A stretch of DNA of 40,909 nucleotides from Tessaracoccus bendigoensis DSM 12906 (GTDB taxonomy: Bacteria > Actinomycetota > Actinomycetes > Propionibacteriales > Propionibacteriaceae): the NCBI RefSeq assembly GCF_900141915.1, contig NZ_FQZG01000033.1:1-40909 (forward strand). Direction: 5' to 3'. The position numbers were made by a program, and so were the translations under genes. The number at the start of each line of letters is the position of its first letter. The first letter of the stretch is position 1. The notes under the pieces are model-generated. The model had not been told where the DNA came from, did not search any database, and saw only the letters and a program-made list of their open reading frames with translations. Positions 22,528-24,696 of this stretch are shown here, one piece after another.

Positions 22528-22690
22528 GTTGAGCCGAGCTGGGCTGGTTGAGCCGGGCTGGGCTGGTTGAGCCGGGCTGGGCTGGTTGAGCCGGGCTGGG
22601 CTGGTTGAGCCGGGCTGGGCTGGTTGAGCCGGGCTGGGCCGGTTGAGCCGGGCCGCGCTGGTTGAGCCGGGCCGCGCCGGTTGAGCCGGG
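22528..22690 (+). repeat. 19-bp tandem repeat array (about nine copies)
   Basis: TTGAG recurs at 22529, 22548, 22567, 22586, 22605, 22624, 22643, 22662 and 22681, exactly every 19 bp. The unit is TTGAGCCGGGCTGGGCTGG; the first copy has one change, and the last few drift towards GGGCCGCGC. The last unit is the GGTTGAGCCGG end of the hairpin element at 22679-22725, so the array looks like an expansion of that element's tip. It starts 13 bp after the pckG stop. Confidence 0.93.
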
Positions 22691-22725
22691 CCGCGAGCTT
22701 GCGAGCCGCCCGTGACGAAACCACC
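22679..22725 (-). repeat. Dispersed hairpin repeat element, copy 2
   Basis: On the minus strand this reads GGTGGTTTCGTCACGG (22725-22710) to CCGGCTCAACC (22689-22679), identical at both ends to the copy at 61-111. The interior is a different GC-rich foldback (GGCTCGCAAGCTCGCGG). Confidence 0.75.
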
Positions 22726-22875: not shown

Positions 22876-23916
22876 ATGAGCCTACCCACGCCACGCACCC
22901 CGGACCCGATGAGCGCCCCTCCTCTCCGTTGGGGCCTGATCGGCCCCGGGTGGATAGCCGAGGCTTTCGTCGAGGCCATCCACAACCACACGCGCAGCCG
23001 GATCGTCGCCGTCGGGTCCCGTAGCGCCGAGCGGGCCGGGGCATTCGCGCAACGCATCGGGGCCGCAAGGTCGTACGGCAGCTACGCGCAACTGGTCGCC
23101 GACCGCGAGGTCGACGCGGTCTACGTCGCCACTCCCCACAGCGAACACCTTTCGGGTGCCATGCTCGCGATCCATGCAGGCAAGCCGGTGCTCGTGGAGA
23201 AGGCGTTCACCCGCAATGCAGGCGAGGCCCGGCAGGTCCTCGACGCCGCACGAGCGGCAGGGGTCGCCGTCATGGAGGCGATGTGGACCCGATTCCTGCC
23301 TTCCACAGACATCGTGCGTCAACTCCTGGCAGCCGGAGCGCTCGGAGAAATCGAGGCTTTGTTCGCCGACCACGGCCAGTGGTTCGCCGAGGATCCCCAC
23401 TTCCGGCTCTTCGACCCTTCGCAGGCGGGCGGCGCGATGCTCGATCTCGGCGTCTATCCGGTCTCGTTCAGCCACCTGGCGCTGGGGGCCCCTGCGAAGA
23501 TCCAGGCGGCAGGCACCAGCGCGTTCACCGGAGTCGACCGTCAGATCTCGGGGCTGCTCAGCGGATATGCGGCGCACCCCGGAGCCCACAGCCTGGTCAA
23601 CACGACGCTGGCCGCCAGGACCCCGACGGTCGCGTTGATCTCCGGCGTCGAGGCCCGCATCGAGATCCCCGGCGCCTTCTACGCTCCTCAGCAGATCCGG
23701 GTGATCTCCAGAGACGGCTCGGTCGAAGAGTCGGCCCCACCCGTCATCGCCGGCCATCTCGGGCTCTGCCACGAGGCGGCCCACTTTTCCAGGATGATCG
23801 CCGACGGCCGCACCGAGTCGGAGCTGCTGCCCTGGTCGGAGACACTGGCGGTGATGGAGACGATGGACGAGTTGCGTCGACAGGTCGGGGCACTGCTTCC
23901 GGGCGAGACGCTCTGA
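22876..23916 (+). CDS. Gfo/Idh/MocA family oxidoreductase
   Basis: This 346-residue NAD(P)-dependent dehydrogenase is expected to act on a sugar or a sugar-like hydroxyl. The Rossmann motif is WGLIGPGWIAEAF (about residue 19 onward), the second-strand region is VAVGSRSAERA, and the catalytic-lysine motif is VEKAFTRNAGEA, an EKA variant of the usual EKP seen in dihydrodiol-dehydrogenase-like members. The C-terminal domain contains GGAMLDLGVYPVS, the family's substrate-side signature. The ATG at 22876 has TCTAAT 6 nt upstream and no Shine-Dalgarno, so it is probably leaderless. The substrate is not determinable. Confidence 0.88.
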   Translation: MSLPTPRTPDPMSAPPLRWGLIGPGWIAEAFVEAIHNHTRSRIVAVGSRSAERAGAFAQRIGAARSYGSYAQLVADREVDAVYVATPHSEHLSGAMLAIHAGKPVLVEKAFTRNAGEARQVLDAARAAGVAVMEAMWTRFLPSTDIVRQLLAAGALGEIEALFADHGQWFAEDPHFRLFDPSQAGGAMLDLGVYPVSFSHLALGAPAKIQAAGTSAFTGVDRQISGLLSGYAAHPGAHSLVNTTLAARTPTVALISGVEARIEIPGAFYAPQQIRVISRDGSVEESAPPVIAGHLGLCHEAAHFSRMIADGRTESELLPWSETLAVMETMDELRRQVGALLPGETL

Positions 23917-23991
23917 CCAGACCCGCGTCGACCAAGGGCGAGCTCCCCCCTGCCTCAGACCCGGCCCAGTCCCAGAATCCGTCCCAGACCC

Positions 23992-24064
23992 GTGCACAAA
24001 TCTCTCTATACGTCGAGGCCGCCCCATATACCGACCGCCTCCACACATACAGAGATCTATGCAC
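23992..24064. repeat. 28-bp-arm inverted repeat
   Basis: The left arm (23992-24019, starting GTGCACAAATCTCTCTATAC) and the reverse complement of the right arm (24037-24064) match at 22 of 28 positions across a 17-nt spacer. An outer GTCGAGGC/GCCTCGAC pair (24012-24019 and 24066-24073) extends the symmetry. The region lies between two convergent genes. The right arm contains the TACAGAGAT word seen at 188 and 35289. Confidence 0.8.
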
Positions 24065-24130
24065 AGCCTCGACGGCCAGACGGCCAGACCGAGCACCCGC
24101 GGCCCGGCAGCGAGCCTTTGAACTGCCTTC

Positions 24131-24299
24131 CCCGTCACCAGGGATATCCCTCGTCACCAGCGATCTTCACCCGATACCAGCGCAGTGTCTCGTCACCAGC
24201 AGTATTTCGCTGGTGACGAGCGTTATCGCAGGTGACGGCGTCAGAACGCAGGTAAGCGCGACACATCACTGGTAAGCGCGCGATTCCACTGGTAGCGCG
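24131..24299. repeat. Head-to-head array of nine spaced 12-bp boxes
   Basis: Four boxes point left and five point right, with consensus GCTGGTGACGAG. The box core (CTGGTGAC or its complement GTCACCAG) starts at 24134, 24153, 24173, 24192, then 24210, 24229, 24249, 24269 and 24289. The steps are 19-20 bp, two helical turns. The 7-8 bp between boxes are unrelated in sequence. The two central boxes form a perfect 12-bp-arm hairpin around AGTATTTC (24201-24208). Boxes decay towards the right end (GGTAAGCGCG). No open frame is credible here. Confidence 0.9.
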
Positions 24300-24312
24300 C
24301 CAACGGTCGGGG

Positions 24313-24696
24313 TCAGGGACTCTCGGTGCCGAGCGCCGCGCCGAGTTCGTCTGCGATCATCGTGACGCGCATCATCGTCTCGACGACCTCGTTTCCTCCG
24401 AGGCTCGACAAGGGCAACGCGTTGGTCACCACGACGTACTCATCCTCGACGATGAGCCCGCCGACCACCTTCTGGGCCAGCTTCTCACCGGCAGTCCAGA
24501 GGTCGATCTCGGTCAACTCCCCGATCGGCGACTTGAATTTGACCCAATCCGTCTCATCGTTTGACGCATGTTCTATCAGCACCGTTTGCGCGCGCCGGCT
24601 CGGCAGCTCGAACACCAACTGCAGATGCCGCTCGTCGAGGTCGCGCACACTCCAGTTGCTGTGCATGAACTCCCTGAGTTCCTCCCAGCTGGCCAT
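24313..24696 (-). CDS. Conserved hypothetical protein, possibly YbjN/secretion-chaperone fold
   Basis: This 127-residue soluble acidic protein begins MASWEELREFMHSNW. The alternating strand-like segments (HLQLVFELPSRRAQTVLI, DWVKFKSPIGE) and the central EYVVVTNALPLSSL resemble small YbjN or type III chaperone-like folds, but the match is only by pattern. The start at 24696 has a strong GGAGGGGGAGG upstream. It lies downstream of the P-type ATPase on the same strand with a 68-bp gap, so it may be cotranscribed. No function is claimed. Confidence 0.6.
   Translation of the reverse strand: MASWEELREFMHSNWSVRDLDERHLQLVFELPSRRAQTVLIEHASNDETDWVKFKSPIGELTEIDLWTAGEKLAQKVVGGLIVEDEYVVVTNALPLSSLGGNEVVETMMRVTMIADELGAALGTESP

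Follow-up and report, generated by a model that had tools for sequence, protein, structure and literature searches.

A nine-box intergenic array of Tessaracoccus bendigoensis is one copy of a dispersed repeat family with a four-box core

Most repeats dispersed between bacterial genes are either short RAYT-tied palindromes or classical MITEs. For the GTAG and CGTC families of REP/BIME, many intergenic copies are described in which head-to-head pairing is common, and the CGTC REPs are given a stem of 8-9 bp, a loop of 4-5 nt, and no dedicated transposase (PMC3733652). The repeat of Tessaracoccus bendigoensis DSM 12906 reported here resembles REP/BIME of that description in being intergenic, present in many copies, and arranged head-to-head. 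However, a REP unit is itself a small palindrome of 20-40 bp with a GTAG or CGTC tag, whereas a single Tessaracoccus box is not palindromic, the unit comprises four boxes over 76 bp, and the boxes lie at a near-fixed spacing in arrays that grow in 19-20-bp steps. Unlike RAYT-mobilized REP/BIME, the repeat resides in a genome with 0 matches to Y1_Tnp (PF01797, RAYT), a family present in 5 of 14 control genomes.

Transposons such as Tn7, Mu, Tn5053, and IS21 carry several transposase-bound boxes at each end. Like MITEs and such multi-site ends, the Tessaracoccus elements have several direct boxes per arm and inverted arms, and they spread without coding capacity, but their box number varies and they come without recognized ends, target duplication, or partner transposase (Y1_Tnp being the class searched). 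Plasmid iterons and partition sites (parC, tubC) consist of phased short boxes that are bound by a multimeric DNA-binding protein, and a multimeric reader would likewise be expected for the phased short boxes described here. Iterons are, however, initiator-adjacent and occur once or a few times per replicon, whereas this repeat is chromosomal and dispersed over about 40 places of the same genome, so that an earlier description of the array as iteron-like, made from the sequence alone, is not supported in the origin sense. In the CENP-B box satellites of eukaryotes, a short protein-binding box is kept inside diverging repeat arrays. The Tessaracoccus box is similarly kept in diverging arrays, but the repeat is bacterial and intergenic, its binding protein is putative, and the likeness is drawn for the boxes, not for a centromere role. 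Two further likenesses were considered and set aside. The Chi sequence of E. coli (GCTGGTGG) resembles the GCTGGT core of the box, a likeness that gives no reason for a 19-bp pitch, and the boxes are unlike parS (the ParB site), the parS sites on the parAB contig of the same genome being of the usual kind. This 5.4-kb contig (C66, L021) carries parA, parB, three perfect parS sites, about 2 kb without a Pfam-recognized gene upstream of parA, and arrays at both ends. No description of the repeat was found in the literature searched, and an Rfam scan of the whole window returned two tRNAs and a small SRP RNA only, with the array unmatched at the gathering score; the earlier statement that no named element has this form stands as far as these searches go.

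The window, i.e., the whole stretch of DNA that was analyzed, comprises 40,909 nucleotides. An oxidoreductase gene and a small gene converge on the array (24131..24299), which lies between their 3' ends together with the following features.

22909..23916, plus strand: left neighbour, GFO/IDH/MocA-type oxidoreductase (Pfam; start from an ad hoc gene caller)
23917..24312, no strand: gap of 396 bp between convergent genes (comparison with the relatives G008 and G048, by eye)
23979..24253, no strand: segment 95% identical to a second genomic place (C106, L009:2801-3074; sequence comparison)
23992..24064, no strand: different palindromic repeat (GTGCACAAATCTCT...AGAGATCTATGCAC) adjoining the array and copied with it (inverted-repeat pair I2)
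24130..24166, minus strand: two additional left boxes (24134, 24153) in phase with the core (sequence reading)
24167..24242, no strand: four-box core of 76 bp, boxes 24173 and 24192 facing 24210 and 24229 (match of the covariance model R2 introduced below; gapless alignment to elements of other species)
24189..24220, no strand: inner boxes as a perfect inverted repeat, 12-bp arms separated by 8 nt (sequence reading; folding z-scores)
24243..24300, plus strand: three additional right boxes (24249, 24269, 24289), in phase and degenerate (sequence reading)
24313..24696, minus strand: right neighbour, small protein without a Pfam match (Pfam search, gene caller)

Direct reading of the sequence bears out the nine head-to-head boxes of the sequence-only reading with their positions and steps. 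Four GTCACCAG-type boxes of one orientation start at 24134, 24153, 24173, and 24192, and five CTGGTGAC-type boxes of the opposite orientation at 24210, 24229, 24249, 24269, and 24289, giving steps of 19, 20, and 19 bp, 18 bp over the centre, and 19, 20, 20, and 20 bp. The inner pair (CTCGTCACCAGC-AGTATTTC-GCTGGTGACGAG) forms an inverted repeat whose 12-bp arms match perfectly on either side of 8 nt, just as had been claimed, and the noted outward decay of the right boxes is likewise present (CAGGT in right boxes 2 and 3; GGTAAG or GGTAGC in the three outermost, which are degenerate). The array also withstands the shuffle check: nine boxes at 19/20-bp steps are chained in the 396-bp gap, against a maximum of three in 5000 dinucleotide-preserving shuffles. 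Scores of at least 6 occur within the 41-kb window only in the array gap and in a second 19-bp array near 22528-22691. What fails is the claim of a two-helical-turn spacing with all boxes on one DNA face, as the steps average 19.5 bp and two helical turns take 21 bp. Steps are mostly 19 or 20 bp, and the two-step distance is sharply 39 bp (141 pairs, with 40 pairs at 40 bp and under 25 at 38 bp). With 10.5 bp per turn, 39 bp make 3.7 turns, and each box is thus rotated by about 50 degrees relative to the one before, so that no common face is shared.

The second tandem array (window 22528-22691) lies upstream of the oxidoreductase gene and has 8.6 copies of the unit GTTGAGCCGGGCTGGGCTG in a single orientation; its period is that of the nine-box array, its box (GCTGGTTGAGC) is a different one. 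A 51-bp stretch at 22675-22725, ending in ACCACC, is 100% identical in L031 (601-651), and it recurs with 98% identity over 46 bp at L031:928-973 and with 89% over 160 bp at L035:2272-2431. The GTGCACAAATCTCT...AGAGATCTATGCAC palindromic repeat is also found at L009:2551-2676, within L009:2801-3074, and at L031:754-848.

The window array is one copy of a dispersed repeat family and no unique site. When the array was compared by BLAST with its own 4.13-Mb genome, 171 matches at E <= 1 were obtained, and a hand count among the matches listed gave 40 distinct places; the 39 places besides the window array were fetched as 37 stretches. Tandem box pairs of the pattern GCTGGTNNC number 93+118 = 211 in this genome, vs 0+1 for a reversed-pattern control and 0-6 in each of 197 other genomes of the family, and a looser box pattern (three mismatches) gave 353 vs 61 in the control. 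Most own loci follow a common plan, with left boxes in one orientation and right boxes in the other facing over a constant centre. Arms with unequal box numbers occur, many loci hold several units in a row, and up to 37 boxes are in phase under a loose rule. When up to two mismatches are allowed, the own loci contain 46 dyads, although at least one (L041:3256) lies in a gene and seems to be there by chance. Tandem-repeat periods of 19, 20, and 39 dominate (29, 35, and 33 rows), and the arrays appear locally homogenized by eye.

Copies in the own genome lie in convergent (10), tandem (9), and divergent (9) gaps, a distribution on which a function as terminator was rejected; a further 13 sit at contig edges. 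In a separate count by cluster, no gene separates 13 of 42 from a contig end. Convergent gaps are over-represented, with 10 of 28 host gaps vs 11 of 96 other gaps. In none of the 41 own and 32 congener gaps does a core share 20 bp or more with a gene predicted by our own simple caller; with looser array limits, an overlap is seen in 5 of 42 clusters.

Related elements in congeners were revealed by R1, a sequence-only model from 30 own dyads. The covariance model of the 76-bp core, R2, was built from 20 clear four-box elements of ten genomes, hand-chosen from 53 laid-out loci, and its short calibration makes its E-values rough. The window core, itself among these 20 elements, scores 69.7 bits (+) and 69.1 bits (-). 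Within the genus, R2 has matches in 26 of the 39 genomes (E <= 0.01), and nine of the 26 had contributed to the model; 17 of the 30 genomes that gave it no sequence match. The other 13 of the 39 have no R2 match, and the element therefore has no essential function; its expansion is seen in some species only. In an order-wide sample scored with stricter filters, 24 of 293 genomes match at E <= 0.001 (21 of Tessaracoccus and 3 of other genera of the family), G125, a matching genome of another genus, having given sequence to R2. R1 reaches E 4.6e-4 to 0.0095 in 16 genomes of other genera; of the four of these that were fetched, G125 was taken as real by eye and used in R2, whereas G081, G094, and G127 were judged to be chance matches, even though R2 gives G094 (L129) an E-value of 8e-4. 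In the relatives' loci, R2 matches 36 of 46 and found nothing at L089-L091, L113, L114, L127, L128, L130, L136, and L137.

BLAST matches in G011 and G023 are not arrays by eye, have no R2 match, and were discarded, and a plasmid or phage origin was rejected as no match occurred in the plasmid or phage collection; the box pair is present in 3 viral contigs. A wider contig search for the box pair returned 18 stretches, one of them from Tessaracoccus sp. OS52; the remaining 17 carry one pair each, except for Nocardia flavorosea with two. Six matches to the GCTGGTNNC pair pattern, with GCTGGTCGC boxes and five of them in a row 20 bp apart, lie at C1:488773-488961 in G138, which belongs to a different genus of the family, and L120 (G014) holds a weak core match flanked by 20-bp tandem repeats (GTTGGCGCGGAGGGGCTGAGC).

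Across the repeat family, the spacing is nearly indel-free while the box sequence differs between species. The core is exactly 76 bp long in 128 of 130 R2 match rows of the own loci (both strands counted; the other two are cut by a contig end) and in 100 of 110 rows of the relatives' loci (again counting both strands). In the order-wide sample, 86-bp matches occur in G020, G052, and G019, and one of 87 bp in G052. At least one core occurs in all 38 own sources, as expected for sources fetched by similarity. The 20 elements of the ten genomes align without internal gaps, a result that partly reflects their choice by hand, except for the G020 type, which has 10 more columns in the centre. This 10-bp difference between the two forms of the core centre, near one turn, hints at phasing across the dyad but is probably a single event.

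The box of about 12-14 bp has the consensus TAnCGCTGGTRWCGAG in the own genome, mostly GCTGGTRWC, and it differs elsewhere: G059 has GCTGGTSAAC together with GCTGGTGCC or GCTGGTGGC, and most of the elements sampled from G007 and G022 have GCTGGCGWC, while the box is GCAGGTGTC in G054, GCGGGCGTC in G012, and GCAGGCAAC in G125. Differences also occur within species, namely in G051 (L118 vs L119), in G020 (L115 vs L116), and in G007, where one element (L126) has GCAGGTGTC and most read GCTGGCG; boxes that are not uniform within a species count against the protein reading preferred below. In L126 and L102 (G054), an orthologous core occupies the same position, flanked by two neighbouring genes of one strand for a putative ABC solute-binding protein and a putative permease, and this core is kept although most sampled G007 boxes differ. 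In a comparison of 38 loci (one random box per locus, conditioned on CTGGT and an in-phase partner), the information content is 0.44-1.58 bits in columns -2 to +11 outside CTGGT and 0.06-0.19 bits in the spacer (columns 12-16), values to be read with the box conservation as partly ascertained because detection relies on boxes. The earlier view that boxes and phasing are selected is upheld in so far as boxes and spacing are kept more than the spacers; its companion claim of unrelated spacers goes too far, with 0.43-0.78 bits in the ATA columns that precede the box.

The relatives G008 and G048 have these genes in unchanged order, but there the two stop codons overlap or are separated by three bases, and the site is empty by eye. 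The 396 bp are thus either an addition in the lineage of the window or a loss in both relatives. The nearest copy (275 bp at 95%) lies between other genes, and from this and the empty site in two relatives we conclude that copies have spread. The empty-site comparison worked at the window locus alone, with nothing at L042 and one flank only at L016. No target-site duplication or shared terminal sequence was recognized in the one empty site compared, where the ends are not resolvable, and a search for related loci with the small right-neighbour protein as query found none. The 63 flanking genes of the 37 stretches match 90 Pfam families; among the 25 of these listed there is no transposase, and NUDIX is the only family matched by two flanking genes.

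Whether the symmetry of the element belongs to an RNA or to the DNA can be approached through its arms, which are able to form long hairpins (24120-24305 folds with a z-score of -5.0 on one strand and -4.5 on the other). These long stems, and wobbles of a single polarity in some copies of G059, point to a hairpin, which nevertheless ranks lower because the arms match no better within elements than with shuffled partners. The arm test covered 115 elements, all exactly 76 bp long (65 own, 50 of relatives), leaving out the matches of L112, L115, L116, L126, and L129 and two cut rows of L021; copies at least 85% alike were dropped, and the four genomes with at least seven remaining elements were tested. 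Arm identity at positions 1-34 is 0.629 within elements vs 0.681 for shuffled partners in the own genome (26 distinct of 65), 0.739 vs 0.775 in G059 (9 distinct of 26), 0.731 vs 0.746 in G022 (7 of 8), and 0.668 vs 0.681 in G007 (7 of 8). All but one of 16 arm comparisons are at or below the shuffled mean, the exception being the outer box of G007 (reached by 384 of 2000 shuffles). No compensatory changes within elements beyond the species consensus were found in the four species, in elements found with a pairing-rewarding model whose bias runs toward the hairpin. The 400 pair cells of alignment A3 comprise 354 Watson-Crick, 10 GU, 3 AC, and 33 other, i.e., 10 GU among 364 standard pairs, and box mismatches in the own genome are GU 45, AC 58, and other 143. 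As the arms show no within-element fit and G-U pairs are few, the symmetry would come mainly from boxes following a genome-wide consensus, as a binding motif does.

Other comparisons favour a hairpin or do not separate the two readings, and they leave the hairpin open. Inner boxes are closer to each other than to outer boxes (0.86 and 0.79 vs 0.66-0.75 at variable positions), and in a comparison of species, both partners have changed in 14 of 20 consensus pairs. With a single element from each of ten genomes, arm pairing in spacer 1 is 0.567 vs 0.381 when shuffled (3 of 3000 reach it), the inner and the outer box are each reached by 0 of 3000 shuffles, and the second spacer is not above them (1199 of 3000). 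The pairing of spacer 1 can be explained by a spacer consensus per genome and by a hairpin as well. This comparison drew on 28 of the 53 loci (stem score of at least 10.8; L103, L108, L110, and L112 dropped by hand; L120 left out as lacking the motif), and in its within-species part the inner box was slightly above the shuffles (184 of 3000 in the own genome, 481 of 3000 in G059).

A transcribed imperfect hairpin that serves as mRNA stabilizer, attenuator, or terminator, like the operon-internal REP hairpins, would fit the stable folds, the both-side changes, the above-chance pairing of spacer 1, and the orthologous core between adjacent same-strand genes in G054 and G007. It would also fit the one-polarity wobbles of several G059 copies, though copies of one element in both orientations would give the same picture. 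We nevertheless consider it quite improbable, given the lack of within-element covariation in four species despite a detection model that rewards pairing, the rarity of GU pairs, the spread of own-genome box mismatches over GU, AC, and other kinds, the unequal arms, the divergent orientation of 9 of the 28 own gaps that have both flanks, and the missing Rfam match. A neutral satellite, spread by tandem slippage and recombination with nothing bound to it, would account for the dominance of the periods 19, 20, and 39, for the local homogenization seen by eye, and for another 19-bp tandem array of other sequence in the same window. Slippage alone does not predict that boxes are kept while spacers diverge (38 loci), nor that the core length is kept between genomes, and such a satellite has a small chance at best.

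The spread of the copies could also be that of a MITE-like transposon remnant, in which the half-arrays are the left and right ends, a transposase binds several boxes per end, and the cargo is gone. Dispersed copies, the empty site in G008 and G048, the expansion limited to some species, the unequal box numbers of the arms, and the 95% identical copy between other genes are all in line with this proposal. The absence of a recognized target-site duplication or common terminal sequence, the variable box number, the lack of a transposase among the 25 of 90 flanking-gene families listed, and an own genome devoid of Y1_Tnp (the class that the search covered) speak against it, and we hold it to be rather unlikely. 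It is the protein reading preferred here with a transposase as the binding protein; mobilization by the putative box-binding protein would, we infer, be a special case of that reading.

The preferred reading, which we give slightly less than an even chance, is that the array is an expanded copy of a dispersed non-coding Tessaracoccus DNA element whose boxes would be read by a trans-acting protein. It is built on copy number, intergenic placing, core length, a box sequence that differs between species, the conservation of boxes over spacers, and the lack of arm covariation in four species. Arms without covariation within elements speak against the maintenance of an RNA hairpin and favour double-stranded boxes with a protein that reads them in trans, and conservation suggests, at somewhat under an even chance, that the repeat is bound as DNA by a protein. 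The sequence-only reading had left the choice between cooperative protein binding and RNA structure; the within-species data of the arm test fit the protein better, though not with boxes on a shared DNA face.

In the mechanism that we propose, the unit would be the 76-bp core with four boxes of about 12-14 bp, two facing two, to which extra boxes may be added outward in 19-20 or 39-bp steps by tandem duplication. Each box would be a double-stranded site, bound within a given species by a single protein or by a small set of related ones, and the putative protein would occupy the four boxes as a symmetric multimer, its specificity changing together with the boxes. Copies would spread as elements via a box-recognizing enzyme or a host pathway.

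What sets the element apart is a geometry that is kept while the sequence has changed between species, with arms that show no hairpin-like covariation within elements. By analogy, this might represent a genus-wide bacterial 'box satellite', a counterpart of the CENP-B type with dozens of sites per genome, a fixed four-box geometry, and a box co-evolving with a fast-changing protein whose multimers on a 19.5-bp pitch would organize or mobilize the chromosome; we regard this extension as speculative and improbable. If a protein does read the repeat, it would be a new mobilizing enzyme or a new chromosome-binding factor, and the box changes over up to 26 genomes would be a natural record of protein-DNA co-evolution.
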